From Xestospongia muta (taxonomy: Eukaryota; Porifera; Demospongiae; Haplosclerida; Petrosiidae), in contig OY848921.1 in assembly GCA_963693285.1 (NCBI GenBank), positions 6,151,229 through 6,215,228 of the forward strand: 64,000 nt of DNA. The letters run 5' to 3'. The position numbers and the translations under genes were made by a program. Each line of letters begins with the position of its first letter. The stretch's first letter is position 1. Positions 1,940 to 64,000 of the stretch are shown here, in pieces. The notes beneath the pieces are model-generated. The model did no database searches. It saw only the letters and a list, made by a program, of their open reading frames with translations, and was not told the origin of the DNA.

Positions 1940-3373
1940 ATGCTGACTCAACAGAAACACAATACCAAGCATACAGTACCATTTCTCATGTTTGCCTAGT
2001 AATCGACTGGCATACGCAATAACTTTCTCACTTCCGTCCTCTTGCATCTGAGATAGGACAGCACCAATCCCGGTATTACTAGCATCAGTGTCTAGAACGA
2101 AAGTTCAGTTGAAGTTAGGAAATGCCATTACAGGGATGAGGTCAGCTTTTCCTTTAGTTGTAAAAACGACTGTTCACATTCTCTTGTCCAATTGAAAGCA
2201 GCAGATTTCTCTGCTAACTTATGCAAAGGTTTGGTGATAGTTGCAAAATCTTTGATGAATTTTCGGTAATACCCAGCAAGACCTAAAAATTGTTGAACTT
2301 TCTTCTTAGAGGAAGGAGTTGGCCAATTTGTTACCTTCTCTGTTTTGATGAATCAGCAGCAATTCCATTTTTGGAGACTATGTGCCCAAGATACCGGACT
2401 TCTTGTTTGAAGAAGTCACATTTGGCTGGTTGTAGCTTCAATTCAGCTTTTCTTAACCTTTCTTGTACTGCTCGGGTTCGTTCCAGATGCTCCTCAAAGT
2501 CTCGACCCAAAATAATGATGTCATCCAGGTAGACTAAGCAACTAGACCACTGTAAACCAGCCAGTACCAAATTCATTAGTCTCTGGAATGTAGCTGGAGC
2601 ATTGCACAACCCAAATGGAATTACTTTAAACTCAAAAAGTCCCTCGTGAGTGCAAAAAGCTGTCTTTTCTCAGTCCTCATTGTTCACTTCTACCTGCCAA
2701 TATCCACTAATTAGATCCAATGTGCTAAACCACTTTGAAACTGACAAGGTATCCAACGTATCATCAATGCGAGGTAATGGATAGGCATCCTTTCGAGTGA
2801 CAGCATTGAGCTTCCTGTAGTCAACACACATTCGAATACTACCATCTTTCTTTCGGACCAGAAGTGATGTCCATGGGCTATTTGATGACTGTATGATGTC
2901 ATCTTGAAGCATTCCTTGTAACAATTTTTGTACCTCCTCTCTTCTATATACTGGCATACACCGTGGAGTTTGTCGGATTGGTGGAGGATTTCCAACAGAT
3001 ATGGAGTGGTTCAGTACTTTCGTTCGCCCAACATCTTGTTTAGACATAGCAAATACATCATTGCAGGCAATAAGTAGGAGATAAAAGGTCTTTTGTTCTT
3101 CACTCAGATCCTCTCCAGACCTTCCAACAATACCCCATAGCATTTGCTTTTAGTCTTCTGGGAGATCTTCTGATATGCAGTTTGAGCTCTCTTGGTTAGT
3201 CTGGCTCTCAGCCAGAGGAGCTTGGCTGCATCATCCCAAGCGTTGACTGCAGCAACATTCTCAAAATGAGCAATCCACTGATCCCAACTGCCTTCTCCTG
3301 TGAAAAGCTCTGGTAGGACTAATGAGATGTCATTGATTAAGTATCTGTGTGTGTGTGTTCCCCACTCTTTCAT
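1940..3373 (-). mobile_element. Decayed Ty3/Gypsy LTR-retrotransposon fragment
   Basis: Minus-strand remnants appear in order. A gag-like piece (3373 to about 3140) carries the WDQWIAHFENVAAVNAWDD motif. It is joined directly to a reverse transcriptase piece (about 3130-2670) with VRKKDGSIRMCVDYRKLN and LDLISGYWQ, then a second RT piece (2609-2331) with the catalytic YLDD box, and finally RNase H-like sequence down to about 1940 (DTDASNTGIGAVLSQ). The part normally between gag and RT (zinc knuckle, protease) is missing. A frameshift or stop separates the RT pieces near 2610-2670. No LTRs or integrase are visible, so the fragment is dead. Its gag end stops exactly where the 2.7 kb duplicated segment begins. 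Confidence 0.85.
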
Positions 3374-8180: not shown

Positions 8181-8687
8181 TTACAGTCTTTGTTAATGCC
8201 ACAAACAGTGTGTAGCTAAATTGTGATACCAAAATTTTCTGTACATCTATTATCATAACTATATTAGGTCTGTACAAATATTGATGGAAGCAGTGGCACT
8301 TTATTAAATGAAAATGTTGGTAATAGCTCTACATATTACCGCACATAGTAACAACAACAAGAACAACATTACCATAGAAACATCATCCACTATATTTCAC
8401 CATAGCAAGCATTGTCAAATAACAAATTCTCATTTTAGTATGAAAACAAATTAGATATTGCTCTATTACCTCTTACTCACTTAGATATATGATGCTGGTT
8501 AATTAATAGACACTAATAGTTTCAGTAACACTACTAGTGTCAATAACCATGTATCAAATTGTGGACTGGTTTCATCCTTTATAGTTCATATTGTACATAG
8601 TAGGCACATCAACAAGCTCCATGTGTCTCTTAGATATGTTGTTGCAAAAATGTTTAAAAAATTAAAGGTGATTAAAATTAGTCAGAA

Positions 8688-11182
8688 TTATTTAGAGAAG
8701 CTAGATACAGTGAAATCAATGTATTCAGCTAGTGGTTTTATCATGTCTTCTATAGACTGAACTAAATCAGAAAATGGTGGTCTCTCCTCTGGATTACTTT
8801 TCCAACAAGACATCATTAATTTGTATCTAAAGACAATAATTATAATTATAATGCTGAAATTAATATCTAGTTTCTTACATTTCCTCTGAACATGCTGCAT
8901 TATTTGGACTTAGGAGTCTACCTCCACTGTCCAGTAATTGAACCACACTCAAAGGATCTAGACCAGGATAGGGAATTTTACCAAGACTGAACACCTCCCA
9001 ACATAACACACCATATGACCACTGTGTAATTGGATAATAGTTAATAAAAATGTAATCTACTGACCACATCTGTCTTCTCAGAGAATAGACCATCATGAAG
9101 GCTTTCTAATGCCATCCACTTAACTGGTAATTTGATAACAGGTTTTTCAGATTTAGTATTATTCCATTGTCTGTAATAGCTACGCATATAAACATCTTTT
9201 GAGAGTCCAAAGTCACCAACTTTAATAATCCCATTATCATCAATCCTAAATGACAGAGTGATTTGAAGAGAGTGAGACACAACTTACATGCAGTTTCTAG
9301 CAGCAAGATCTCTATGTACAAATCTTTTTTCAGCTAGATATGACATTCCCATTGCAACTTGTAAACACATGGAAAGAAGCTGCTTTCTTGCATTGAGTAC
9401 AATATCATCATCACTGATTTCAGTAATAGTTAAATTTGGTCTCTCTTTTTTAAGATAAGATAACAGACTACCTCTGGTCATAAATGGCATTACAATGTAA
9501 GGTGCCTGACCAAGATCAAGACAGATTCCAATGAGAGAAAGTATATTTGGATGATCAAAAGAGGACATCTTCACACTCTCCTCAATAATAGAGTTCACAT
9601 CTTCGTTTGTGTAATGACCTAACTCAAATAGTTGAGGAATTTGAAATAAATTTAGTGTTAATGATATTACTAACCTTTAAGTGTTTTAACAGCAACAGGT
9701 ACTGGAACACTATTAATGATGTCACCATCAGGTGTTAGTAATCCTCGATAAACTATCCCAAATTCACCTTCATATCATTAAATATAGTACAAATTAAGTA
9801 TAACAATTAACGATACCTTGACCAATAGTCTCTTGTAATTGCAAAAATGATCCTGAAATAATTCTGCATTCTGATAACCATTTTGAATATGAAGATAAAA
9901 CATCATGTGTTTGAGTGTGATTTAGCATGTCAATGATATCTTTGTTGCTGTTGCTGTGTACAGTATAATTGTTGTCTACTGCAGTAACTAATGTTAAGTT
10001 ATTGGTACTTAGGGATTTGTCACTGTTAACACAAGATGTCATCTCCAATTCATTGCTACAAAATAAGAAATTATATTACCTATAATAACAATAATCACTA
10101 TATAGTAGATTACATTTAATCTTGTGTACATTTAAAACTCACTATCTTCATTACCTAGCTTGGATTCTCTTTTTTCTTTTTAAACAAACTATAATAACCA
10201 CTGATGATATAGACAGGAGTAGTATGACAATTACTACTGCAATAATTATAATCAAATAAATTGTCAAGCTTATTGAGGACTTTGCTGATGTAGATGAGGA
10301 CAATGGAACATATTGTGTAGTTAATATAGGTGAGAATGATTGAACATATGGCATAGTTGATGTAGATGAGGATGATGAAACATGGGGTAAGGACGATGAA
10401 ACATATTGTGTAGTCAACGTAGGGGAGGATAATTGAACATATGGCATAGTTGATGTAGATGAGGATGATGAAACATGGGGTAAGGACGATGGAAAATATT
10501 GTATAGTTAATGTAGGTGAGAATGATTGAACATGTGATATAGTTGATGTTGATGAGGATGATAAAACATGGGGTGTAATTGAATTTGTTAAACAGTCACT
10601 GCCTGTCCATCCACTGACACATGTACAATTGTTAGGAGCTGAGCATTCCATGTTAGTACCACACGAGGAATTACAAATTGCTATATAAATGTGATATTAT
10701 GTTATTTGTATATCAATAACAAGTATAACTTACGTAGACAGTTTGGTTTAGGACCATAACCTGAACAACATTGTAGTTGAAGACTATAAGTCAATACATA
10801 AACTGTCACACTGATAGATCTATATTATAATATAAACATGTATTTTTTATTGACAATATTACTATTAGTGTCATAATTAAAAATAATCTTTTAATTTTGG
10901 ATTATACAATGTCACATGTAGTATTATAAGCAAATTTTTATTATAAATACACAAAAATAAAACATATCATTCTAACCTTGTACAAACATTCCAACCACAT
11001 TGGGTATAAATAGGTAAATATATAACAACTGATGTTCTTGAAGACACAGATACATTGTTTGAGCAAGATTCTATAGCATGACAACTGTATATGATAAGAC
11101 AGATTACAATAATACAGTGTCACTATAAAGCATACCTGTCCATCAAAGCTGTATAACAAAATAAAACAATCAAGAGCCTCAT
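8688..11182 (-). CDS. EMI-EGF receptor tyrosine kinase, complete
   Basis: Ten exons on the minus strand: 11136-11182, 10977-11084, 10734-10819, 10155-10680, 9817-10055, 9675-9767, 9288-9618, 9065-9245, 8879-9021, 8688-8826. The spliced frame is 1893 nt, 630 aa. Order: signal peptide (MRLLIVLFCYTALM), EMI domain (residues about 17-80, ending CCSGYG), one EGF (about 82-112), a Ser/Thr-rich stalk (about 113-215), TM (about 218-245) followed by KRKKR, juxtamembrane region, then kinase (about 330-620). The kinase has GQGEFG, VAVK with Lys363, HRDLAARN with Asp470, DFG at 488-490, an activation-loop YY and a WMALES APE-type segment. All catalytic residues are present, so it should be an active membrane receptor. 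The ligand is unknown. A fourth exon fusing EGF, stalk and TM is unusual compared with the single-EGF exons of the neighbouring receptor. Confidence 0.9.
10265..10570 (-). repeat. Tandem repeats encoding the receptor stalk
   Basis: Within exon 4 of the receptor kinase, roughly 114-bp units are repeated about two and a half times. They encode variants of SSSSTSTMPYVQ followed by SPTLTTQYV and SSLPHV. The product is a Ser/Thr/Pro-rich extracellular stalk just outside the membrane, probably O-glycosylated (inference). Copies are similar enough that length variation between alleles is likely. Confidence 0.75.
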
Positions 11183-38410: not shown

Positions 38411-39928
38411 TCATGTTGACACAGGAAGAAGAGGATCTTGTTCATCTAGGCTGCTATCAGTGTCCTTATTGTCATCTGATCTCTGAATAGTATAAGTTTT
38501 ATATGAACGTATTTTACGTTTACATCCATTACCAAAGGTATTGATTTTGTTAGTTTTTGTACCATGTGTACGAAAAACAACCAGTAATAGAAAAACAGCA
38601 CCAAAAGAGAGTATTATTATTAAAAAGACCTCCAAAACAAAGTAGCCGTTTCTATCAATAATAAGTCCAGAAATCAAATCAACCATGGCATAAGCAATGT
38701 TACAACACGATGACAACATCCCATATGCTGTACTCAGTTGATGATCATCAACCAACATGGCAATAGTTGGTTTTATTGCAGTGTCTATAATGCTATAAGA
38801 CATTCCATTCATTGAAGTAACTACGAAAGGAATAAAGGATGATCCAAGTGTAACCACAAGTAGCAAATGGGCTCCAATAGACAATACAAAACCACTTAGT
38901 CCCCAATATATGAGGAAACCGGACCAATCAACAATCAGGCCAAGTAATGGAGCAGTTATTGTAACTAAATAAGTCAGCATGTTTGCAACATTAGCCAAAC
39001 TCACAGTCAAACCAAATTTACTCAGATAATATACTTGTCCAACAGCTACAAAGGGAAAGAAAATTCCATAAAAACAAGTCATAGATAATGTTAGTAGCCA
39101 GAAGTTAATACCAAAGCTTTTAAAATGTTTCCAAGAGAACGGCTCCTCTGTTCCTTTTCGTCTGTTTAATATTTTCTCAGCTCTCTTGTCCAAAATGGCT
39201 GACAATATGGACATTATTAAGGAGAATATGCACAACCCAACACCTAATAAAAAAACAATACCAAGACGAAAGGATTTATTTTCTATATTATCTAATAACT
39301 CATACAGTGGCCTATTTAAAAGAAGTCCACATGCTCCTCCAAGGCGATTAAATGCTGCCTGCACTGCAAATACAAAGGACAACTCCTTTCCTTTAAACCA
39401 CAGTGCTGCAAGAGCATATGTTGCTAACAGTGATGCCTCATCACCTATACCTAAAACAAATCGACCCAATAATATCAACCAGTAAATGTGGAAGGAACAT
39501 CCAAACACAGTGATGATTTGACCAACAGTTGCAACAACTAAAAAGACTAATATTCCTATTCGTACACCTAAATATCGGTCAATGATGATTCCAGAAATTA
39601 AACAAGCTACAACATTTGGCCAGGAATAAACAGAAAACAGTAGAGTGTAGCGTGTTGAGTCTATCTTCAGGATTTGAATGATTGTTTCTTCAAGTCCAGA
39701 AGGTGTCTCATAGACAAAGTTCATGACAAATTTGACAACGCATATTGATGCCAAAATCATGTACCTGCAAGGCCACTTCCTGGGATTAGTTAAATAGTTA
39801 CACCATGTTCTTGAAACAACTCTTGTACTACTGTTATTTCTCACAGTTCGCTCTTTTTGAATCATGGATCTAGTAGAGGTCAATCCTCGCTGACTAATTA
39901 GAACAAAACCAAACCCCTCAGACATCAT
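38411..39928 (-). CDS. MFSD1-like: MFSD1-like lysosomal transporter
   Basis: Single-exon gene, 505 aa from ATG 39928. It is a major facilitator superfamily protein with about 12 TM helices. MFSD1-family motifs are visible: SGLEETIIQILKIDSTRYTL then YSWPNVV in the first helices, GGxxxDRxLG-like IDRYLGVRIG loop, GRFVLGIGDEA, and WFKGKELSFVFAVQAAFNRLG, which parallels the WFKGKELNLVFGLQ of MFSD1. The hydrophilic C-terminus ends DEQDPLLPVST and contains a (D/E)xxxL(L/I) dileucine signal, so lysosomal sorting is likely. In vertebrates MFSD1 exports dipeptides from lysosomes; the substrate here is inferred. This is the most divergent member of the local cluster, and the others lack the dileucine motif. 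Confidence 0.88.
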   Translation of the reverse strand: MMSEGFGFVLISQRGLTSTRSMIQKERTVRNNSSTRVVSRTWCNYLTNPRKWPCRYMILASICVVKFVMNFVYETPSGLEETIIQILKIDSTRYTLLFSVYSWPNVVACLISGIIIDRYLGVRIGILVFLVVATVGQIITVFGCSFHIYWLILLGRFVLGIGDEASLLATYALAALWFKGKELSFVFAVQAAFNRLGGACGLLLNRPLYELLDNIENKSFRLGIVFLLGVGLCIFSLIMSILSAILDKRAEKILNRRKGTEEPFSWKHFKSFGINFWLLTLSMTCFYGIFFPFVAVGQVYYLSKFGLTVSLANVANMLTYLVTITAPLLGLIVDWSGFLIYWGLSGFVLSIGAHLLLVVTLGSSFIPFVVTSMNGMSYSIIDTAIKPTIAMLVDDHQLSTAYGMLSSCCNIAYAMVDLISGLIIDRNGYFVLEVFLIIILSFGAVFLLLVVFRTHGTKTNKINTFGNGCKRKIRSYKTYTIQRSDDNKDTDSSLDEQDPLLPVST

Positions 39929-40119
39929 AGCAATCAATGAATATATTATTACATCTGATAAATGGTTGCATACCGATTATGGTGGCTATTGTATATTGCT
40001 GTAGTAAACCAAACATTACTGTAATTAATAACGTATAAATAATGAGATTGCCAATTAATAAATATAAACAACAGGTGTGTGTATATGCAAAATTATATGC
40101 ATGGTTGCAAGTTAATTAT

Positions 40120-40150
40120 GATTGGGCGGAGCTTCCTGGCGGCCATATTG
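40120..40150. promoter_or_regulatory. Possible promoter of the MFSD1-like gene
   Basis: GGGCGGAGCTTCCTGGCGGCCATATTG is a GC-rich island in AT-rich DNA about 200 bp upstream of the start at 39928. It contains an ETS-like TTCC core and a YY1-like GCGGCCAT. It could equally belong to the adjacent plus-strand open frame. Confidence 0.35.
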
Positions 40151-40307
40151 TGTGGCAAAAACACATGCGTACATATTGCTGATGGCAGTTGCACCGGTCA
40201 AGTCAGCATACTTTCTTAGCCTTTCAACAAATTCCAAGCGTTGGTATGAAGCTAAGTTGAGCAATGCTGGATTATCTGTGGACCCTGTGTGTGTGTGTGT
40301 GTGTTGA
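40122..40307 (+). other. Possible exon or transposon-derived open frame
   Basis: Open frame with a protein-like stretch (VKSAYFLSLSTNSKRWYEAK) that runs into a (TG)n tract and stops. I recall similar short motifs in repetitive uncharacterised invertebrate proteins but cannot name the family. Confidence 0.25.
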
Positions 40308-40560
40308 TTACAGTAATGTTTTTGTTTATTTTAGCGATATATATGTAATGTACTGAAAACTAACTCAAGTACTCATCTACTTGACATAGAAGTGTTGTAG
40401 TGCCAGTGATTATACCTTGAATATGCAAATATGCAAGGTGTAATCAGTCTAATCACATATTCTTTCAGATATAATTTCATAAATTTACACTAGTAGATGG
40501 TAATGCAGGTGACACATACTTGTTCCATGTACTACCTGCAAAGGCTACCGTAAGGCTACC

Positions 40561-40596
40561 GTAATTGCTGTAATCACTTGTGATTACAGCAATTAC
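40561..40596. repeat. Perfect palindrome, 17-bp arms, TT centre
   Basis: GTAATTGCTGTAATCAC, TT, GTGATTACAGCAATTAC. It sits in a 350-bp zone (40390-40740) dense in GATTAC/GTAATC words, probably the end of a DNA transposon. Confidence 0.9.
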
Positions 40597-41127
40597 TTTG
40601 TCTGATTATGATTAAGATTACTGATTACACTGTTTCTGGAAAGTTGATTACAATTGTGATTGCGATTATAGCAAAAATGTAATTGATTGCAATTGATTAC
40701 GATTACAATCAACCCCCAATCCTGTCCTATATATATACATATACTATAACTATATAGAATAATGGAGGGTGTTGAGGCTATTTTGTATTCTATTACTGAT
40801 TATATGTACATATGTGTGTCTTACAAATTAAAAAAAAACTTTATGCGAAAATTTTTGAAAAAGAAACAGCCTTAAAGGTTTTTAAGCAAGAGATGAACTC
40901 TATCAAGATATTTCCTTCTTGGTTAAAACGTTTTTTAAAGGTCATGACTAGTTGAATTTGTCTAACTAATATCAACAATAACTTCACAATTATCATTATA
41001 TCCAATGATATATTAATTAATTAATAATTAGAATTTTTCTGCAAACTGTACTTGGAAATTGCTAATGATTACTAATAAATTCAAATTACAACAAGCTTGT
41101 TACATTTTAATTAACGAATCTACGAAT

Positions 41128-41545
41128 TTATAATTTATTATATAAATGTCATCCTAAATCTTCATCTTCAGCTGTTGTTGTTGGCCTTGTCAAACAAAGT
41201 TGTAAAGAATTTACCAGCATCAAGTCTATTTGACATTAATCTATGTCCTAATCTTTCCTCTAGATCTTTTGCACCTCTTCCCTCATTGATGACAAAGTGT
41301 TGCTATGGAAACAGATTACCACAAAGACACAATTGATGCCAAAATCATGTATCTGCAAGGCCACTTCATGAAATTTGTTAAATAATTACACCATGGATGT
41401 TCTTGAAAATGCTGTAGTAGTAATAGTTATTTCTTATACATTTTGTTCTTTTGGAGTCATGAATCCAGTAGAGTGCAATACGCACTAGTACTGACTAATT
41501 AGAATTAAATCAAACACCTCATATGTAATTCTAGGCAATGAATAT
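41128..41545 (-). pseudogene. Chimeric relic: BCAS3 3' exon plus MFSD1-like 5' end
   Basis: About 41200-41320 matches part of the BCAS3 exon at 49353-49440 (TTTACCAGCATCAAG, CTCATTGATGACAAAG, TGGAAACAG). It runs straight into sequence (about 41330-41545) matching the 5' coding part of the transporter at 39740-39955. The leading piece (41128-41200) recurs at 43800-43870 and 48640-48715. Frames are broken. Confidence 0.65.
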
Positions 41546-42044
41546 AATATATAAATGCATACAGGGTAAAGTGCCTATTGTCTAATGACATGTTATACAA
41601 AATCGTATAACCCAGTTATTCAACTGAATAACTTGTTGCTAGTATTTTAGTAAAAAGAACAGAATTGTGTTTATTAAACTTCCCAAGTATATCATCATGA
41701 ATTATACACAACGAAAATCACTACAGATTGGTTAAGTCTATCAACCTACTTTTATAGTGTATAGTAATCTAAACATTATTGCAAACATTCATATTAAGTA
41801 CGGAGAGTGCAAATTAATGAATTAAGAAATAAAAAATAATGCAAATTTGAACTGAAAATACTCAAACATACATATTACATGAATTATATACATACATAAT
41901 ATATTCATAAATAGTGTTTCTAAATTCAATTTTACAAGAATTAATGTGATCAAAGTAAGTAAATGATGTAGTTCATGTGATATAACAGATCTGATAATCT
42001 TTTCATTATATTATGACTGTAGCACTGCATATATGCATGTCATG

Positions 42045-43388
42045 TCAATGATCAGAATCCTGAACAGAACAAGAAAATCTTTGTCCTTTTTTCAGTTTGT
42101 ATTTCCATATTTTTCCGGAGATATTAGCTTTATAATTTGTGAAATATATATGAAAGATTAGGAAAACAACACCTAAAGTGAGCAAACTTATCAAAAACAT
42201 CTCCAAAATGAAGTAACCAGATCTATCAATGATAGTTCCTGAGACAAAATCTACAATAGAATAGCCAATGTTAAAGCAAGCAATCAGAATTCCAAATGCT
42301 GTACTCAGTTGGTGATTTTCAACCAACATTGAAATAGTTACATTAACTGCTGTATTAAAAATACTGTACGACACTCCATTGATTACAGTGACAATAAAAG
42401 GAATATACACTGAAGAATCCGAAAGAACAACCAATATATGAGATCCAATATATAATATAAAACTAGCAAGTTTCCAATATGTACGGAATCCAATCCAATC
42501 AATCATTAAGCCAAAGATAGGTGAAGCTACAATTGGGATTACATATGACAGCATATTTGCTACATTAGCCAAGTTTATACTTAAATTAAATTTACTTAAG
42601 TAAAAGACTTGTCCAACAGCTACAAATGGAAAGAAAACACCAAGATAAGTTGTTGCTGATATTGTAATCAACCAATAGTTAATGCCAAAATTTTTACAAT
42701 CTTTGAAAGAACATTTCACACCTCTTTTCTTTGATCGGTTCAATAATGACTCAGCTCTTTTGTTCAAAATGGCAGCCATTATGGATGTCATAATGCATAA
42801 TACATATAGAGCAACTCCTACTAAAAAGACCATACCAAGACGAGATAATCCACTTTCTTTAATGTAACCAAAACTTTCATATAATGGTCCATTTAGAAGA
42901 AGTCCAGCTGCACCTCCAAGACGATTAAATGATGTTATTATTGCAAATACAAATGCTAGCCATTTCCCTTTAAACCACAGGGCAGCAAAAGCAGATGTTG
43001 CTAATACAGCTGCTTCAGCACCTATACCCAACACAAAACGACCCAATAACATCAACCAGTATGTATTAATAAAACATCCCAAAGCTATTATAATTTGACC
43101 AACAGTAGCCAAAACTACAACAATCACTATCCCTGTGCCTAGACCTAGAAATCGATCAATGATAACTCCAGAAAGTAAAGCTGATACAATAGCTGGCCAG
43201 GAATAAAGAGAGTACAGGAGAGTGTACTGTGTGGAATCTACCTTCATTACTTGAATGATGGTTTCTTCGAGACCTCCTGGTGTGTCATAGACAAAGTTGA
43301 TAACAAACTTGAGTACACATATTGATAACAAAATCATACATTTATGCCAGCGCTTGTTGGGATCAACACAGCAAGCTTTAAAAGGCAT
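42045..43388 (-). CDS. MFSD1-like: MFSD1-like transporter, tandem copy D
   Basis: Single-exon 447-aa MFS protein from ATG 43388, with about 12 TM helices. It shares the family signature with its neighbour (GGLEETIIQVMKVDSTQYTL, YSWPAIV, GRFVLGIGAEA, WFKGKWLAFVFAI, FNRLGGAAGLLLNGPLYES). The usual GKEL of the MFSD1 family is GKWL here. The protein begins almost immediately with the first helix (MPFKACC) and ends QDSDH, without the dileucine signal of the divergent copy, so it may reach a different membrane. It is almost identical to 45206-46582, and both flanks are also duplicated. Confidence 0.9.
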   Translation of the reverse strand: MPFKACCVDPNKRWHKCMILLSICVLKFVINFVYDTPGGLEETIIQVMKVDSTQYTLLYSLYSWPAIVSALLSGVIIDRFLGLGTGIVIVVVLATVGQIIIALGCFINTYWLMLLGRFVLGIGAEAAVLATSAFAALWFKGKWLAFVFAIITSFNRLGGAAGLLLNGPLYESFGYIKESGLSRLGMVFLVGVALYVLCIMTSIMAAILNKRAESLLNRSKKRGVKCSFKDCKNFGINYWLITISATTYLGVFFPFVAVGQVFYLSKFNLSINLANVANMLSYVIPIVASPIFGLMIDWIGFRTYWKLASFILYIGSHILVVLSDSSVYIPFIVTVINGVSYSIFNTAVNVTISMLVENHQLSTAFGILIACFNIGYSIVDFVSGTIIDRSGYFILEMFLISLLTLGVVFLIFHIYFTNYKANISGKIWKYKLKKGQRFSCSVQDSDH

Positions 43389-44188
43389 TCTTTCTTTAAA
43401 AAGGTAGTATCTGTTGATCCGGCCGGAATTTACACTTTGTTGTTGTTGTATTTAATATTTAGAGGGTGGGCGTCAGTCTACAAGCCACACCCCAATAATT
43501 AAGCACTTTTAACCGGAAATAATTAACAATAATCAACTTGTTCAACTCGATAATTGTACTCATTTGAACTTCATACAATATCTTAGTGGGAGCACACTAA
43601 TGCAGATAACTTAGTAATTTTAAAAGATTAATTCAACTAATTTTTTTGTTCTTGAGCTTTTATCCCCACCTATTATACACCTATGTATATATAGGTATAT
43701 AACTTCTTAAAATTGACAACTTGTTAAACAATAACATTTATGCCACGAATAACTTTCCTCTAATATGGTTCATCCATGTATTGATAATAAGAATTTGTAA
43801 TTCATTTTGAATTTCATCCTAAGTCTTCATCTTCAACAATTGTTGTTGGCCTCATCAAACAAAGTTAATTAGAGGCAATGTTCCCAAATAGTCATATAAG
43901 TCTGATCTCACAGGAAATTCTACATAATGTATTTAAATTATTACTATTAAATTTAATAATTAAACAAGACCACAAAGTTGACCTGTAATTTTTTTCAAGT
44001 ACTTATACTACAATAATCAAAGCTAACAACCTGTATATATATTTTTTCTCGCTCAAGCACAACAATTTGTATTAGAAAGAGTATAAATAGAATGTGAATT
44101 GTATTGAGATATATGTCATAATGTGAATTATATTGAGATATATGTCATATGAAAACAACTTAGGAGAGCGTGGCATGTACAACATTAC
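43389..44188. other. Duplicated intergenic sequence upstream of copy D
   Basis: The 43500-43600 part (CACTT(T/A)TAACCGGAAATAA and following) also occurs upstream of copy E (46735-46850) and of the pseudogene (48500-48600). The 43900-44070 part matches BCAS3 intron sequence at 49905-50060. Confidence 0.6.
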
Positions 44189-44342
44189 TTTAAAAGTCTC
44201 CAACATAATTTAGGGGTAATGTGTAGTTCAATAGGAGCATCTTCTCCATCAGTAGCTGTATTAATTCTCTGAGGCTCAAGTAAATATTCAGTTAACAGTC
44301 CATCTCCACCAAATATATATAATGAATAAGTAACCTTCTGAT
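44189..44342 (-). pseudogene. Detached copy of a BCAS3 exon (154 nt)
   Basis: Copy of the BCAS3 exon at 51001-51154, the same length, with an intact frame (VTYSLYIFGGDGLLTEYLLE) and intact splice sites, but 4.5 kb downstream of the BCAS3 stop. A few residues differ (HITPK for RHTPK). No start or further exons are nearby. Confidence 0.75.
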
Positions 44343-44605
44343 CTGTAAAATCTACAGAAAGTAATACAATTGGATAATAGCCATGTCAATAAAAGAAATC
44401 ACATATATAAGTAGAGTTCATTTATGTAACATTATTGCAATATCATATATCATTATTTGAAGGATTCATGATCGTATGTCATTACAGTGTAACTCCAAGG
44501 TACTTGTATATTATTAAAGTTAAATGTACTTATAATCTTCCTGATTGCAGATTACTACTATGGCATTTTGACATATTAATTAATATACTAATTTTAATTT
44601 TCTAC

Positions 44606-44728
44606 CTATTTTATTTCGAAGAGAGGTTAACTCAGAGGGTGTGGCAAAAATAGCTTGAACACATGTAAATATAATATCATTAGTATTATCTCCTGTAGTA
44701 GATAGTCCAGAACCTTTTGTTTGGTGGC
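44606..44728 (-). pseudogene. Detached copy of a BCAS3 exon (123 nt)
   Basis: Nearly identical to the BCAS3 exon at 51439-51561, same length and phase, splice sites kept (frame reads STTGDNTNDIIFTCVQAIFA). Together with the exon at 44189-44342 it shows that part of BCAS3 was duplicated with the transporter cluster. The BCAS3 exon that should follow (equivalent to 50442-50536) is deleted. Confidence 0.75.
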
Positions 44729-45205
44729 CTAAAATAGTAAATGATACAGACAATGAGATCTGATATGTTATGAGATCTGTACATGAATCTTATAGTTTTA
44801 TTATTCAACTAAATAACTTGTCATTAGTATTTTAATAAAAAGAACAGAATTGTATTTATTAAACTTCTCAGTATGTCATCATGAATTATACACAATGAAA
44901 ATCACTACAGATTTGTTATATCAACCAATTTATTTTCACAGTGGATAGTAAGCCAAACATTATTGCAAATGTTTATATTAAGTATGGAGAGTGCAAATTA
45001 ATAATGAATGAAAATATAATAACAAATATATATATACATATATATATATAGTGCAAATTTGAACTGAAATAGTCAGTCAACACATATATACACATTATAT
45101 GAATTATATACATAATACATTCATAAATAAAATGTTTCTAAATTCAATAATTTTACTATAATTAATGTGATCCAAGTAAGTAAATGTAATGTAGTTTATT
45201 TGATA

Positions 45206-46582
45206 TCACAAATCGAATAATCTGATTTCTTCATGTTCGTGATCAGAATTCTGAATAGAATAAGAAAATCTTTCTTGTCTTTTTTTCAGTTTGTATTTCC
45301 ATATCTTTCCAGAGATATTAGCTTTATAATTTGTGAAATATATATAAAAGATTAGGAAAACAACACCTAAAGTGAGCAAACTTATTAAAAAGATCTCCAA
45401 AATGAGGTATCCAGATCTATCAATGACAGCTCCTGAAACAAGAACTACAATAGAATAGCCAATGTTAAAGCAAGCAGTCAGAATTCCAAATGCTATACTC
45501 AGTTGGTGATTTTCAACCAACATTGAAATAGTTACATTAACTGCTGTATTAAAAATACTGTACGACACTCCATTGATTACAGTGACAATAAAAGGAATAT
45601 ACACTGAAGAATCCGAAAGAACAACCAATATATGAGATCCAATATATAATATAAAACTAGCAAGTTCCCAATGTTCATGGAATCCAATCCAATCAATCAT
45701 TAAGCCAAAGATAGGTGAAACTACAATTGGGATTACATATGATAGCATATTAGCTACATTAGCCAAGTTTGTACTTAAATTAAATTTACTTATGTAAAAG
45801 ACTTGTCCAACAGCTACAAATGGAAAGAAAACACCAAAATAAAATGTTGCTGATATTGCAATCAACCAATACTTTATGCCAAAGCTTTTGCAATCTTTGA
45901 AAAAACATTTCACACCTCTTTTCTTTGATCGATTCAATAATGACTCAGCTCTTTTCTCCAAAATGGCAGCCATTATGGATGTTATAACACATAATACACA
46001 TAGAGCAACTCCTACTAAAAAGACCATACCAAGACGAGATAATCCACTTTTTTTTATGTAACCAAAACTTTCATATAATGGTCCATTTAGAAGAAGTCCA
46101 GCTGCACCTCCAAGACGATTAAATGATGTTATTATTGCAAATACAAATGCCAGCCATTTCCCTTTAAACCACAGGGCAGTAAAAGCAGATGCTGCTAATA
46201 CAGCTGCTTCAGCACCTATACCTAACACAAAACGACCCAATAACATCAACCAGTATGTATTAATAAAACATCCCAAAGCTATTATAATTTGACCAACAGT
46301 AGCCAAAACTACAACAATCACTATCCCTGTGCCTAGACCTAGAAATCGATCAATGATAACTCCAGAAAGTAAAGCTGTTACAATAGCTGGCCAGGAATAA
46401 ACAGAGTACAGGAGAGTGTACTGTGTGGAATCTACCTTCATTACTTGAGTGATGGTTTCTTCGAGACCTCCTGGTGTATCATAGACAAAGTTGATAACAA
46501 ACTTGAGTACACATATAGATAACAAAATTATACATTTACGCCACCATTTGTTGGGATTAAAACAGCAAATTCTAAAAGGCAT
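45206..46582 (-). CDS. MFSD1-like: MFSD1-like transporter, tandem copy E
   Basis: Single-exon 458-aa MFS protein. I chose ATG 46582 (MPFRICC), which matches the start of copy D; the frame is open a little further upstream but without an ATG. It carries the same motifs as copy D (GGLEETITQVMKVDSTQYTL, GRFVLGIGAEA, WFKGKWLAFVFAI) with scattered substitutions, which are mostly conservative. The C-terminus is extended past QNSDH to EHEEIRLFDL, an acidic tail that copy D lacks. Flanking noncoding DNA is also conserved, so the duplication is recent and both copies are probably functional. Confidence 0.9.
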   Translation of the reverse strand: MPFRICCFNPNKWWRKCIILLSICVLKFVINFVYDTPGGLEETITQVMKVDSTQYTLLYSVYSWPAIVTALLSGVIIDRFLGLGTGIVIVVVLATVGQIIIALGCFINTYWLMLLGRFVLGIGAEAAVLAASAFTALWFKGKWLAFVFAIITSFNRLGGAAGLLLNGPLYESFGYIKKSGLSRLGMVFLVGVALCVLCVITSIMAAILEKRAESLLNRSKKRGVKCFFKDCKSFGIKYWLIAISATFYFGVFFPFVAVGQVFYISKFNLSTNLANVANMLSYVIPIVVSPIFGLMIDWIGFHEHWELASFILYIGSHILVVLSDSSVYIPFIVTVINGVSYSIFNTAVNVTISMLVENHQLSIAFGILTACFNIGYSIVVLVSGAVIDRSGYLILEIFLISLLTLGVVFLIFYIYFTNYKANISGKIWKYKLKKRQERFSYSIQNSDHEHEEIRLFDL

Positions 46583-46945
46583 TCTTTCATTAAACAAAGG
46601 TAGTATCTGTCGATCCAGCAGGAAGTCACACTTTGTTGTACATTGTTAACGTCTATTGTTTATGGCTGAGGTGTCAATTTATACACAGCAATGTATACAT
46701 TTCCTCTAGATCCAAACTCTAATAATTGTAATTAAGCACTTATAACCGGAAATAATAAACAATAATCAACTTGTTCAACTCGATATTTGTACTCAATTGA
46801 ACCACATACAATATCTTCGTTGGGAGCAGACCAACTTGGTTATTATTAAAAGATTAATTCAACTACACTCATAACAATTTCTATCTATCTAGCTTTCCTT
46901 CTTTCTTTCCTTCTTCAGCTTTTGCCCCCAGCCTGTAATGTTCCC

Positions 46946-46985
<40 letters not shown>

Positions 46986-47399
46986 TTACAAATTCTTATA
47001 ATAAAATGTTATACAGAATCTTATAATTCTGTTATTCAACTAAATAAATTGACATTATTATTTTAGTAAAAAGAACATAGTGTTTATTTTTACAGTGAAT
47101 TATAAACCAAGTATTATATATTGCTTTGTTTACATTAAGTATGGAGAGCACAAATTAATAAATAAAGATATAAATAACAAGTGTACACATATATAATGAA
47201 AAGTTAAACTAAAATTGTCAACACATACGTATAATATCAATTATATATATATATATATATATATGTATATAATATATTCATCCATAATGTTTCTAAATTC
47301 AATTTTACTATAAATAATATGATTCTAAGTAAATACATGCAATGTAGTTCACGTGAAATATCACAGATAAGATTATCTCATTATATATTATGACTGTAG
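46583..47399. other. Intergenic, duplicated flanks and (AT)n tracts
   Basis: It holds (TA)n runs at about 46950-46982 and 47246-47264. Its right part resembles 41580-42040 and 44780-45200, the 3' flanks of copies D and E. Confidence 0.6.
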
Positions 47400-48417
47400 T
47401 CACTGCATGGTTTCACGTCTGTGATCAGAATTCTGAATAGAATAAGAAACTCTTTCTCCCTTTTTCAGTTTGTATTTCCATATCTTTCCAGAGATATTAG
47501 CTTTATAATTTGTGAAATATATATGAAAGATTAGGAAAACAACACCTAAAGTGAGCAAACTTATCAAAAACATCTCCAAAATGAAGTAACCAGATCTATC
47601 AATGATAGTTCCTGAGACAAAATCTACAATAGAATAGCCAATGTTAAAGCAAGCAATCAGAATTCCAAATGCTGTACTCAGTTGGTGGTTTTCAACCAAC
47701 ATTGAAATAGTTACGCTAACTGCTGTATTAAAAATACTGTACGACACTCCATTGATTATAGTGACAATAAAAGGAATATACACTGAAGAATCCGAAAGAA
47801 CAACCAATATATGAGATCCAATATATAATATAAAACTAGCAAGTTTCCAATATGTACGGAATCCAATCCAATCAATCATTAAGCCAAAGATAGATGACTA
47901 CAATTGGGATTACATATGACAGCATATTTGCTACATTAGCCAAGTTTGTACATATACTTAAACCAAATTTACTAGATGTTGCTAATACAGCTGCTTCAGC
48001 ACCTATACCTAATACAAAACAACCCAATAACATCAACCAGTATGTATTAATAAAACATCCCAAATCTATTATAATTAGACCAACAGTAGCCAAAACTACA
48101 ACAATCACTATCTCTGTGCCTAGACCTAGAAATCGATCAATGATAACTCCAGAAAGTAAAGCTGTTACAATAGCTGGCCAGGAATAAAGAGAGTACAAGA
48201 GAGTGTACTGTGTGGAATCTACCTTCATTACTTGAATGATGGTTTCTTCAAGACCTCCTGGTGTATCATAGACAAAGTTGATAACAAACATGACTACACA
48301 TATTGATAACAAAATTATACATTTACACCACCATTTTGTTGGGATTAAAGTAGCATTTTTTAGAAGGCATCTTTCTTTAAACAAAGGCAGTATCTGTTGA
48401 CCTGGCAGGAAATCCAT
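47400..48417 (-). pseudogene. MFSD1-like pseudogene, copy F
   Basis: Third close copy of the transporter. Relative to copy D it lacks about 396 nt: sequence equivalent to 42597-42992 is gone, joining the helix-4 region (GAEAAVLATS) directly to SKFGLS. That removes about five helices but keeps frame. Just after VANMLSYVIPIVV a 2-nt deletion shifts the frame (GATGACTAC where copy D has GGTGAAGCTAC), and the rest (MIDWIGFRTYW to the end) is open in another frame. GRFVLG has become GCFVLG. The protein cannot be a working transporter. Confidence 0.88.
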
Positions 48418-48923
48418 CGTCTCTCCATTATTAATAATGTAGTTAGGGGTGGCCCTGGTGGTGATTAGTTTATACACAGCAAAGAATATCTTAATAATTT
48501 TAAGCAAGACTTGACCCAAAGTAATTAACAATAATCAACTTATTTAACAAAGACAACTTGTTTATATTCATTCAATATCTTAGTTGGGAGCAGATCAATG
48601 CAGATAACTTAAGTAATCTATGTAATGAATCTAAAAATTATAATTCATTATATAAATTTTATCCCAAATCTTCACCTTCAGGTGTTGTTGTTGACTCATC
48701 AAATAAAGTTGAAGAGCCAATGTTCCCAAATATCAGTCTGATCTATACACACATCAAGTCAGTGTGGTGGAGTATATGACATCATTTCAGGTTGTGGTTA
48801 TTTTGTCTCTTGTAAGTAATAATAATCATTTCTGAATAAAATATATCATAAATGAAACTTTATTTTATTTAATAAAATCTTCACTAAAGCAACTCTCATC
48901 TATCTATTAAAATAATTAGTTAT

Positions 48924-56093
<7,170 letters not shown>

Positions 56094-56290
56094 ACTCCGT
56101 CTTTAGCGCTAGTACAGATTATTAATGGTGGTTCGATGAATATGGAGTAGAGAGCGAGGTATAGAGGTAGTATCACAATGAAATTCCTCACTTGTTCTGT
56201 TTACTGGCGGTTCTTAAAGGGTTAAGTTATTTGCCAGTTTAATTAACTATTATTAATAAAGTTCAAGAAGGGTTAAAATTATTTGCAGGC
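56094..56290. promoter_or_regulatory. Bidirectional BCAS3/PIGS promoter interval
   Basis: Only 197 bp separate the divergent start codons, so both promoters must lie here or in 5' exons. There is no convincing TATA box. A TTATTTGCAG immediately before the PIGS ATG resembles a splice acceptor, so PIGS may have a short 5' leader intron or be trans-spliced. Confidence 0.6.
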
Positions 56291-58101
56291 ATGGCTGAGC
56301 ATTCAGACAATCCAACCACTACTACAGACCACACATCACAAGAAGACTCAAGATATGGTCAGAAATTAGCGTTGCTAAGCTATGTATTAGTTGCTGTATT
56401 CATTGGTGTACCATTATGGTGGAAAACTACGGAGGTATATAGATCACCTCTACCGTATACACAAATCAATGAATTAGCTAATAAACAAGTGAGTCATAAT
56501 TATAAGGGGCAGGAGTCTATTATGGTATAGTCAATGTATTTTAAATTACAGGGTTACAGGGTCAAAATTTTTAACTAACATTTTTTGTTGTAATAAAGAG
56601 TTCTTGCCATCTGGTTCCCTTTTTATATTTTTTCATATTTTTTACTTGATTGATTTAGCTTGAAAGTGACAGTAGTCACAGTACCTTTTCTCGTTAAGTG
56701 TTATTATTTATTTATGAAGAACTTGATGACACTTTAATTAATTATTTGGCAGTGTCTACAGGTCCGGTAGAAAAAAGCCCTACTTTAATGTGAAATTAAT
56801 ACTATACCCTGGACCCTACACCCTAAACACTAGACCCTAAATGTATTAATTTCACATTTAAGTATGGCTTTTTTCTACCGGACCTGTAGACACTTCGTAA
56901 GTATTTAGTCACGATGGTGATACTTTTGTAATTATGATAAAGAAATACAAATGGGAACAGGCATCTCTTTTTTGATAGATTACTGATCACAAAAATTAAA
57001 GAAAATGGCAGATCTGTTGTTGTGATGTAGTTTTTAAAGAAATAACTTCATTTTAATGAATAGTTCACAAGTATGAAACTTCAGATATGTACAATAGCAT
57101 GATCTGCTAAAAATTATGTATGCTTTTTCAGAGAAATGTGTAATGATTAAATTAGATGAATCAAAAGTTATGAGAGTTCAAAAATGCTTTAAAATCAATG
57201 AGGCACTGTTTCAGAAAATCCACATGTATTTTTTTGTATTTGGAAAAAATAAATGGATTTTTTAAAATTGCAAAAATGCTATAAAAATGATTTTATTACA
57301 TTACTAATCTTGGAGTATGCTACGATATTTTGTAGATTTCTGGTAAATAATTTGCTTAACATAAAAATCTTTTTAAAATAATTTTGAAAGTTTTTTTATA
57401 CAGGAGAACCAATTTTTAAATAAATTTAGAAAAAATCAAAATTAATGTTGTAACCCCTTAATTGTACATTATCAAGAGTAGATAAGAGAAATAACATACA
57501 ATCGTATGACGTTAAAATTGTAAATATATGAAAAGATTATGAACCAGAAATATATCATATATACGTCACATTACTTAATACATAGTGTTTGTATAGAACT
57601 GTGAGTGTCAACACACTCTTTGTATTTAGTATATGATCATAATATTAATAATATATTAGGTATAATAATTGATTTTATATTATAATGTTACATATAATAT
57701 CTTCTAGTTCCCATCAGTTGTCCCTTGTATTGTGGATGTAGTGAGTCTTGTTAATGGATTACAATTACCATCATTAGATCAACTTAATAAAACTGGTATG
57801 ATAACAACAATAATATTAACATATAAAACAATATGTTTGGTTTTAAACTTTTTTGCAATTTCAATTTTATATTCCATACTGGATCTATTATATCATTCCT
57901 CTATTTTAGTACCTATTAAAGACTCTACAATCACTATTACAAGTCAACTTAGACCAGTATATCCAGGTATATAGAGTACTACTATATTGTGTTAGTGTTG
58001 TATTTTTGTCTATAGATACATTAGAACAGAACAATATCTTGAATGACTTGAAAAGAGAAATTAATAGTAGTATGTTTAACCTTCTCTCGCTCACAATCAT
58101 C

Positions 58102-61282: not shown

Positions 61283-62215
61283 TGATCAAAATCTCAACTT
61301 CTTTAGAAATTGGTTTTCTATATAAGTGCTATTAGAATTTCACTGTTATTTTCCAAATAATTTTCTATCACAACACAACTCGACAATAACAATCTACCCA
61401 CTAACCCCACAGTTGGAAGGGGCTGGGCAAGGGGCTAGGCTAGTTACCAAGTTGTTTGCTGCTACCTGAAAGAGAGAAAGCCGTTCAAGAAAGGTATTGG
61501 TAAGAAGAAAAATGTATCACTGATTTTAGATGCTAACTAAAATACTGGTACTTATTTTAACATTAGGGGATATCAGATTAGGGGATTTCCTATAAAATAG
61601 GGAATTGTACCACTATGGCTAGCAACATCATAGTGTTTTATATATACTGGCAGTCCATGAATTAGTTAGCAAAGACTTGAGAACTAGCAACATGCAGTGT
61701 GTATGTGGAAGACTATAGAAAGCTAGAAATCAATCTTTCAATATAGGCAGAGAAGCAAGCTACAGTAAGAGTTGGAGTTTTGAGTTTGTGGCAATGACAT
61801 GGATTTAGAGGCCTTGATGACTAAGAAAAGAGAACACATTTACTGGAAAATGTATAATATTAGAATGTAATACATCCTAAAGATAATAAGCCAGTTCATG
61901 GAAAAATGTCATGGTCTCAGCATTGAGGTCTTCATAACACACACTTATATAATCTTGTCATAACTTGTAACAGTAGTCAGTCTTATCCTACACAGCTTGT
62001 TTTTATAGTTTTACTCATACTATGGAATATTAATATGAATTGTTATAGTAAGTTCTATCTAACTAGTCCATATAGTGCCATCATATATAATGTATATTAA
62101 TTTAATTAACTACAAATAGACAATTATGTATTGTGTATATTGTTAGTTAGCAACTTTCTTTTCCTAAATAGTTTGTCTTGCATTTGCACAATATTTTTCC
62201 AAGACTATTCAGATG
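61283..62215. other. Intergenic, downstream of PIGS
   Basis: No gene is supported. A possible exon (about 62171-62215, bounded by AATAG and GTAAGT) lies directly before the tandem array; it is listed as a finding. Confidence 0.4.
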
Positions 62216-64000
62216 GTAAGTGCACTTTAAATATGTCATTTATGATTATACATATAATTGTTTGTTTAAACTGTTGCTAATCATGATTTTATTGTCTTTT
62301 ATTAATCTTTTTCTTTAATTATTTTGGTCACCTACTCTTCTCAATTTATGTAATCATATATTATTTTATACCTCAATGGGAATGGTTTTCAGTTCAATTT
62401 TATTTTTTATTCACAGACTGTTCGTGTTTTATAACTTACTATATATTTCTATCTTTCTTCCATATTTTCTATTATAATGATGGCTACATGATGTCATTCT
62501 AATATTTCTAAAACTATTTATAGAATGTAAGTGTGTATCAAGTCAAATTATGCGATCATGTGTTATTGTTTACCTCAATGGGAATGGTTTGAGTTCAATT
62601 TTATTTATTATTTACATACTGTTCATGTTTTATAATTTAATATGTATTTCTATTTTTTTCCATAATTTCTATTATAACTACGGCTACATGATGTCATTCT
62701 AATAATTCGAAAACTTTTTTAGGTGGTAAGTGTGTATTATGTGATCATGTACTATTGTATACATCAATGTGAATGGTTTGAGTTCAATTTTATTTTTTAT
62801 TTACATACTGTTCATGTTTTATAACTTACTATATATTTCTATCACTCTTCCATATTTTCTATTATAACTATGGCTATATGATGTCATTCTAATATTTCTA
62901 AAACTATTTATAGCCGGTAAGTGTGTATTATGTCAATTTATGTGATCGTGTGTTGTTGTATACATCAATGGAAATTGTTTTGAGTTCAATTTTATTTATT
63001 ATTCACAGAGTGTTCATGTTTTATAACTTACTATATATTTCTAATCTTTCTTCCATATTTCTATTATAACTACGGCTACATGATGTCATTCTAATATTTT
63101 TAAAAATTTTTATAGCAGGTAAGTGTGTATTATGTTAATTTATGTGATCATGTACTATTGTATACATCAATGGAAATTGTTTTGAGTTCAATTTTATTTA
63201 TTATTCACAGACTGTTCATGTTTTATAACTTACTATATATTTCTAATCTTTCTTCCATATTTTCTATTATAACTACGGCTACATGATGTCATTCTAATAT
63301 TTTTAAAAAATTTTGTAGCAGGTAAGTGTGTATTATGTTAATTTATGTGATCATGTACTATTGTATACATCAATGGGAATATTTTTGAGTTCAACTTTAT
63401 TTTTTATTTACATACTGTTCATGTTTTATAACTTACTATATATTTCTAATCTTTCTTCCATATTTTCTATTATAACTACGGCTACATGATGTCATTCTAA
63501 TATTTTTAAAAATTTTTATAGCAGGTAAGTGTGTATTATGTTAATTTATGTGATCATGTACTATTGTATACATCAATGGAAATTGTTTTGAGTTCAATTT
63601 TATTTATTATTTACATACTGTTCATGTTTTATAACTTACTATATATTTCTATTTTTCTTCCATATTTATTATTATAACTATGGCTATATGATGTCATTCT
63701 AATATTTCTAAAACAATTATAGGATGTAAGTGTGTATTATGTCAATTTATGTGATTGTGTGTTGTTGTATACCTCAATGGGAATAGTTTTGAGTTCAACT
63801 TTATTTTTTATTCACAGACTGTTCATGTTTTATAACTTACTATATATTTCTATCTCTCTTCCATATTTTCTATTATAACTACGGCTATATGATGTCATTC
63901 TAATATTTCTAAAACTATTTATAGCTGGTAAGTGTGTGTTATGTCAATTTATGTGATGATGTACTAGTGTATACCTCAATGGGAATAGTTTTGAGTTCAA
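62216..64000. repeat. Tandem array, about 202-bp unit, with splice-like core
   Basis: The phrase GTAAGTGTGT recurs at 62527, 62726, 62917, 63119, 63322, 63525, 63726 and 63928 (GTAAGTGCAC at 62216), so units are 191-203 bp apart after the first. Each contains GGCTA(C/T)ATGATGTCATTCT, GAGTTCAATTTTATTT and TGTTCATGTTTTATAACTTA. Each core reads T-rich, TAG, three bases (AAT, GTG, CCG, CAG, CAG, CAG, GAT, CTG), GTAAGT. The array runs off the end of the window. Confidence 0.92.

Follow-up and report, generated by a model that had tools for sequence, protein, structure and literature searches.

What could be encoded by a tandem array in which each unit carries a splice acceptor and, only three bases later, a splice donor? 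This question is raised by the right-hand end of the window (the whole 64,000-nucleotide stretch of Xestospongia muta DNA analyzed here), which lies on contig C5 of a 158 Mb assembly in 28 contigs. A preliminary description had noted that the splice-like words are conserved while the bases between them vary, and had proposed microexons, a recursive splicing ratchet, or an ordinary satellite. We consider it probable that this array and others like it form the 5' part of plus-strand genes, in which one-codon exons would be spliced successively and would encode the variable N-terminus of immune-type proteins. At the level of sequence, the units are intron-like, the triplets are under coding constraint, and the arrays have an in-frame start and an in-frame exit.

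The Window Contains an Array of Candidate One-Codon Exons

TRF placed a tandem array with a period of 202 bp at 62341–64000 on the plus strand (8.3 copies in the window). Cores of the form TAG-NNN-GTAAGTGTGT number eight in the window, in agreement with the earlier report of at least eight tandem units, and 27 over the whole array, which ends at about C5:6219000. Units of the window array are spaced 191 to 203 bp apart, and one GT...AG intron per unit would lie between successive triplets. The candidate one-codon exons obtained by core extraction in the window are, in order, AAT (N, 62524–62526), GTG (V, 62723–62725), CCG (P, 62914–62916), CAG (Q, 63116–63118), CAG (Q, 63319–63321), CAG (Q, 63522–63524), GAT (D, 63723–63725), and CTG (L, 63925–63927), all on the plus strand. 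The proposed start codon, identified from the sequence, is an ATG at 62213–62215 (plus strand) with the donor GTAAGTGC directly after it, and the first intron (GT...AG) would extend from 62216 to 62523 on the same strand. The preliminary description had the repeat begin at 62216; a donor does stand at that position, but it is the one directly after the ATG and does not belong to a 202-bp unit. The ATG is preceded by TTTTTCCAAGACTATTCAG and may itself be a 3-nt exon, and a TATAG-ATG-GTAAG unit precedes the main run in most of the sister arrays described below.

The TAG and GTAAGTGTGT words are identical in all eight window units. Across these units, pi was 0.000 for AG plus GTAAGT, 0.091 for the rest of the unit, and 0.548 for the triplet (7 of 182 body columns were as variable as the triplet), which upholds the contrast between constant splice words and variable triplet that had been described, and also shows the lower divergence of the core when it is compared, as had been suggested, with the remainder of the unit. 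For 26 units of the window array, the corresponding values were 0.019 for AG plus GTAAGT, 0.084 for the body, and 0.282 for the triplet, and 23 of 182 body columns were as variable as the triplet. The contrast at the triplet is only moderate in the window array alone because CAG dominates there; it is strong in the sister arrays. Beyond the window, the AG is lost in one of the 27 units (66344, which is in effect AG/GT) and the donor is altered in four (66344, 67356, 67558, and 67761); over the whole array, the AG is kept in 26 of 27 units and the GT in all 27.

The upstream neighbor of the array gene is a separate gene with a PIG-S exon at 56243–56527 (plus strand, Pfam PIG-S), and the last exon of this gene appears to end near 61282. 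Elsewhere in the window, minus-strand frames at 2331–3149 resemble, by eye, a retroelement reverse transcriptase, and several similar minus-strand frames at 38411–48534 resemble tandem MFS-type transporters (also by eye).

Sister Arrays Are Most Variable at the Triplet

The 198 kb from C5:6213000 on also contain five further complete arrays and a remnant, every one of them on the plus strand. The sister arrays are built of 183-bp units with cores TTTATAG-NNN-GTAAGTATGT. The remnant, at about 6272 kb, comprises approximately five units upstream of a ROCO exon and is a possible decayed stage. When cores were extracted from five C5 arrays and the remnant by a core-independent procedure, AG-NNN-GT was present in 258 of 267; one of the nine failing cores lies inside an array, and the others lie at edges or in relics. 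We then aligned 224 units (220 from the five sister arrays), which were picked by a core seed that favors conserved splice words but not variable triplets. Pi in this alignment was 0.000 for AG/GT, 0.122 on average for the introns, and 0.734, 0.723, and 0.411 for the three triplet positions. The first two triplet bases are almost random and are the most variable columns of these mostly sister-array units.

The spacing of three bases is concentrated in the arrays and, within them, on one strand. In a 260 kb region, with array limits that we set ourselves, AG-NNN-GTAAGT occurred 248 times on the plus strand and never on the minus strand of the 68.9 kb of array DNA, and 11 times on the plus strand and 3 times on the minus strand of the other 191 kb. 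Among spacings of 0 to 12, enrichment besides that at 3 was seen only at 0 (73 sites) and 1 (41 sites), which we attribute to triplets that themselves contain AG. In three loci on contig C1, 114 of 123 cores have both AG and GT, and one or the other is missing in nine; because AG or GT is lost in some units, not every exon can be used and some would have to be skipped.

Read in Order, the Triplets Lack Stop Codons

Read as codons in order, the triplets of the window array give NVPQQQDLQQQLQQQQLQP... after its ATG, those of array 3 give MGVFDEEKPPVPPHDFFSFSNSFRHPPWEEVLPE, those of array 4 give MAWWDYTEGLSVTDPESPYYEDPEEKERKEREEREERWRERER..., and those of array 5 give GNPFPFRRPRREPQPEPFPQLEPFLRPRRRPPPRPIRPRPPPRPIPTNE after the ATG unit. 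A seventh array (C5:6453 kb) reads M and then GNRERWRNFRPPWWYWLLRWLQWLLQWLRW... over 95 triplets. The composition differs by array, being E/R-rich, P/R-rich, Q-rich, or W/L-rich. In the array at C5:6452001–6472000, TGG (W) accounts for 29 of the 95 triplets, and the predicted N-terminus, which starts MGN, is rich in W and L.

All seven C5 arrays are preceded by an ATG. The acceptor of the ATG unit is CAG in the window array and TTG instead of TAG in array 5, and in array 2 two triplets stand before the ATG. Between the ATG and the next triplet lie 0.3 kb in the window array and 1.0 to 3.6 kb in the other six.

Base composition predicts 11 to 12 stop codons in the 280 frame-0 triplets of six C5 arrays; none was found. 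Stop codons were likewise absent from the 95 triplets of the seventh C5 array, the 114 triplets of the three C1 loci (136–142-bp units), and the 36 triplets of a further C1 array. When five arrays were read in shifted frames, 8 of the 10 readings contained stops. As a minus-strand control, we looked for antisense stops and found none in 320 triplets, which makes the control uninformative for that set; the antisense-stop triplets TCA and TTA together made up approximately 19 of the first 100 TBR places listed (counted by eye), unlike sense stops. The last base of the triplet was G, T, or A in all 320 triplets examined, and a final C is rare (one triplet in the three C1 loci and a few places genome-wide).

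The Arrays Have a Predicted In-Frame Exit into Domain Exons

Arrays 2 to 6 are followed by a conserved 16-nt exon (e.g., ATGTATAG/AGGAAGCTTGAAAGAG/GTAAAG) that would lead from phase 0 to phase 1. The proposed adaptor exon of the window array is 31 nt long, has the same ending (GAAAGAG/GTAAA), and lies outside the window at approximately C5:6220978 on the plus strand, ahead of a proposed death-like exon at approximately C5:6221238 on the same strand. The adaptor length is 3n+1. A start in phase 1 is shared by the ROCO exon (GATAG/ATGCCTATAAG), the CARD exon that follows array 2, and the death-like exon that follows the window array. Two joined models, in which direct joining of array, adaptor, and domain exons is an assumption, contain no stop before their ends. 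The C5 adaptors are homologous and therefore count as one observation, not as independent ones. A terminal exon placed directly after the last unit (e.g., of array 4) was dropped as a candidate once the conserved 16-nt exon had been found. The predicted product of the window gene is MNVPQQQDLQQQLQQQQLQPQQQQLLE-LPKSTTKYER-G..., followed by the death-like domain.

Pfam Roc and COR-A models matched the ROCO exon above their cut-offs, and the CARD match in the exon after array 2 scored 20.3 bits, below the cut-off of 23.9. For the two death-like exons, no Pfam model matched at E <= 0.001; they are called death-like because, by eye, they resemble the end of the Amphimedon protein P0096, which one source apparently names as a death-domain-containing protein. 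Relatives of the ROCO exon include Amphimedon queenslandica proteins with 44–50% identity among the named matches listed, and ROCO matches in related assemblies reach 71–90%. No long N-terminus of the array kind was seen among the 120 matches listed of 614; by eye, the residues that some of them have before the P-loop resemble intron read-through, and the N-termini are short in the named gene models from Amphimedon among the matches. Database relatives of the death-like exons likewise showed no such long N-terminus. Residues 1–80 of the array 4 model gave no match among 7978 candidates scored, and a search of protein databases for spliced forms found none.

Other domain exons also occur beside arrays. 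A protein kinase exon (Pfam) is repeated in this position, at locus L015 (around 8306–9889) and in similar copies, and the exons after the L015 kinase exon resemble, by eye, domains of the USP-type DUSP and ubiquitin-like kinds.

Paralogous Arrays Keep the Same Residues over Their First 21 Units

Arrays 4 and 6, with 60 and 59 units, are paralogs. Pairing of units by best upstream intron gave 29 pairs, in which the introns differ by 3.5% and the triplets show three synonymous changes and four amino-acid changes. When units were aligned in order by both flanking introns, 48 pairs resulted, of which 34 are identical, 3 differ synonymously (GAA/GAG, CCG/CCA, and CCG/CCA), and 11 differ in the amino acid. 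All amino acids are kept in units 1–21, where the three synonymous changes are the only codon changes, and all 11 amino-acid changes fall among the 27 later pairs, with the cut at unit 21 chosen after the rows were viewed. The part after unit 21 is rich in E and R and has both gained and lost units; turnover of units and relaxed selection are indistinguishable there. The comparison thus supports coding constraint only over the first 21 units. Because triplets are retained in those paralogous units, a mutational hotspot at the triplet is disfavored.

These data also bear on the possibility that the triplets are coding exons of which only one or a few enter each transcript, by mutually exclusive or stochastic choice, so that the array would be a menu for splicing. 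We regard this as unlikely, even though stop avoidance and the phases of start and adaptor would fit it equally well. All triplets are frame-neutral, so any subset would stay open; the near-identical splice sites would ease skipping, NAG triplets supply a competing acceptor (the 73 sites with a spacing of 0), and the loss of AG or GT in some units points the same way. An array-specific composition, however, is expected if the codons are translated together, and so is a triplet order that is kept between paralogs over the first 21 units, although recent duplication alone could account for the latter.

Stop Codons Are Avoided at Array Sites Genome-wide

We collected exact matches to TAG-codon-GTAAGTRTG on both strands of the genome, each with a backward control. 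There were 1620 matches with VAR triplets (control 4), 2111 with TBR (control 8), 2054 with VBR (control 20), and 10 with TAR (control 6), where independence of the positions predicts approximately 1665. TGA triplets numbered 2 (control 3), so the counts for TAR and TGA are close to the chance controls. Triplets ending in C or T numbered 1352 (control 96). Sense sites in excess of the control come to approximately 7,000 genome-wide, which is probably a lower bound because donors such as GTAAGTCTG were not counted. A pattern derived from the C1 units (AGATGGTAAGTGTGATATAA, up to two mismatches) had 3489 matches against 3 in the control. The triplets of one array share descent and are partly duplicates, and these figures are therefore not independent trials; among the matches listed, many loci on several contigs are represented. 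A composite array of approximately 473 bp at C1:15535001–15545000 contains two kinds of triplet in alternation: GAT, followed by an odd donor (GTAATTTTGA), and a variable triplet, followed by the standard donor.

The deficit of TAG (9 sites, against 1006 for AAG, CAG, and GAG together) is informative, since a second donor overlapping the acceptor would arise with TAA and with TGA but not with TAG. It weighs heavily against a reading in which the sites are ratchet points for recursive splicing, or decoys, within a long intron and the triplets are not translated. An acceptor abutting a donor does look like a ratchet point, but re-creation of the donor is also a feature of successive one-codon splicing. 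Conflict between overlapping donors could explain why TAA and TGA are absent, but untranslated triplets would have no evident reason to avoid TAG, to follow an ATG, or to leave in frame, and we consider this reading very improbable. The ratchet of the preliminary description thus survives in part: its mechanics, with a donor re-created at each step, are likely, but the exons are not of zero length.

Array Sites Lie Upstream of ROCO Exons in a C1 Cluster

The Pfam COR-A model gave 150 scored matches among 261 candidates in this genome, and these (ROCO) matches form several same-strand tandem clusters on C1, C5, C6, C12, and other contigs; ROCO clusters also lie on C3, C10, and C15. The ROCO family is strongly expanded, whether or not arrays are attached to its members. 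The cluster at C1:8.19–9.05 Mb contains 15 COR matches, all on the plus strand. Among the array sites listed, those within 14 kb of COR exons lie upstream on the same strand in 15 of 15 cases and downstream in none of 15; random placement gave a mean of 4.3 of 15, and 15 was reached in 0 of 10,000 trials. Across the cluster, 88 of 90 listed array sites are upstream of a COR match. This test used the purine-ending sites among those listed (up to 100 per list), with the VBR list extending to 8.99 Mb, and the 15 ROCO genes are duplicates of one another.

One array of this cluster was read. It has strongly diverged introns of 146 bp, a 16-nt adaptor (AGAATGGAATTAAGAG), and a ROCO exon in phase 1. 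Comparison with shuffled alignments showed that the C1 units of 136, 142, and 146 bp are related (z 5.5 to 15.4; 5.5 and 6.9 for the 146-bp introns against the other C1 units), as are the C5 units of 183 and 202 bp (z 5.9). Similarity between C5 and C1 is weak (z 2.1 to 4.3; 3.3 and 2.1 for the 146-bp introns against C5), and the introns of the two contigs may have a distant common origin. Three independent intron families, which we had considered, were dropped in view of the z values among C1 and among C5 units. Arrays and ROCO exons do not always coincide: no gene was recognized in the listed reading frames at the C1 arrays at 7.40 Mb and 14.02 Mb, the arrays at C1:7.15–8.15 Mb have no scored COR match nearby, and the ROCO match at C1:456226 has no purine-ending array site nearby among the sites listed.

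The 3-nt microexon proposal of the preliminary description, in which each unit adds one codon without a frameshift, gains support from the genome-wide avoidance of in-frame stops, the ATG ahead of the arrays, the apparent in-frame junction to coding exons, and the position of arrays upstream of ROCO exons. An ordinary satellite with chance splice-like words, the other proposal, would be tandem, homogenized, AT-rich, and present in many copies, as the arrays are, and the window array alone has a triplet only moderately more variable than the rest, but the sister arrays, in which AG/GT is invariant (pi 0.000), the body reaches 0.122, and triplet positions 1 and 2 exceed 0.72 (224 seed-selected units), together with the stop avoidance and the placement upstream of ROCO exons, leave it with almost no probability.

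Proposed Splicing and Evolution of the Arrays

We propose that every 202-bp unit represents a single intron, bounded by a strong donor (GTAAGTGTGT) and an acceptor that is mostly TTTATAG, and that the three bases between an acceptor and the next donor form a 3-nt exon in phase 0. The introns would be recognized and removed one at a time: splicing of one intron would add a codon to the upstream exon and put the next GTAAGT beside it, and the step would repeat. The pairing of a donor with U1 RNA falls mainly within the intron, which in the arrays would free the triplet to code, except for its last base. The splicing of 26 to 95 successive 3-nt exons is mechanically demanding, which counts against this proposal. 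Larger exons, formed by use of an upstream acceptor inside the unit, were set aside, as the 3-base spacing, the stop avoidance, and the phase account for the data. Insertion of a transposon with a 3-bp target duplication was also considered as a possible origin of the triplets.

Introns make up 98% of a unit, so crossing-over would fall mostly within them and whole codons would be gained, lost, and shuffled. We infer that unequal crossing-over in the introns makes the arrays grow and shuffle; the repeated blocks within arrays 2, 5, and 7 agree with this. The N-terminus would evolve codon by codon, and skipping of any exon would preserve the frame. A wider proposal is more tentative, and we rate it somewhat below an even chance: that throughout the genome the N-termini of large, immune-type families of ROCO, CARD, and death-like proteins are encoded at one codon per exon, are altered residue by residue through unequal crossing-over, and vary between transcripts according to the subset of exons used.

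If the arrays are spliced as read here, ordinary spliceosomes can link many single-codon exons in series, well beyond the range of exon sizes normally regarded as feasible, and standard annotation would have difficulty in detecting thousands of this genome's coding exons. The arrays would offer a natural test system for intron-by-intron splicing, for the limits that splice sites set on codon choice, and for recombination between near-identical introns that edits a protein one residue at a time. Spliced in this way, they would be an extreme means of building a protein; under the wider proposal, they would also represent a splicing-based system for generating a peptide repertoire in an early-branching animal. 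Because the predicted proteins are ROCO, CARD, and death-like, the arrays are relevant to ways in which cell-death or immune signaling could be diversified in a sponge.

Relation to Known Systems

In the open-licence literature on tiny exons, microexons, and ROCO proteins of sponges and on schistosome genes, we found no description of tandem one-codon exons. Schistosome micro-exon genes (MEGs) have a coding region made largely of very short, frame-neutral exons of 6–36 bp, which are thought to yield protein variants, and products that are almost all secreted or membrane-anchored (PMC5825161). The array genes would resemble them in the series of very short, frame-neutral exons and would differ in leading into ROCO, CARD, or death-like exons. 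The array exons are exactly 3 bp long, which places them below the 6–36 bp of symmetric MEG exons, and they lie dozens in a row between near-identical tandem introns.

Single 3-bp microexons have been described in Drosophila homothorax and troponin T and in rodent NCAM, and the internal homothorax exons have CAG and GTGAGT or GTAAGT as their boundaries (PMC7392893). In these genes, as predicted for the arrays, one 3-bp exon spliced in adds one codon (PMC7392893). Such microexons occur singly in otherwise normal genes, whereas the sponge arrays hold approximately 26 to 95 each and thousands per genome. An exon of a single base is reported for placozoan mitochondria (PMC5436844).

The sponge arrays share with Dscam-type arrays the tandem duplication of exons that would give protein diversity. 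Dscam-type arrays contain tandem alternative exons the size of part of a domain and provide diversity in recognition proteins. In the sponge, by contrast, the exons are one codon long, and it is the introns that are conserved and the exons that have diverged. Recursive splice sites consist of an acceptor next to a donor; they allow a long region to be removed stepwise and leave no residue in the mRNA. Unlike such ratchet points, with their zero-length exons, the sponge units would leave three bases, which avoid stop codons, and the spacing between acceptor and donor was 3 at 248 array sites and 0 at 73.
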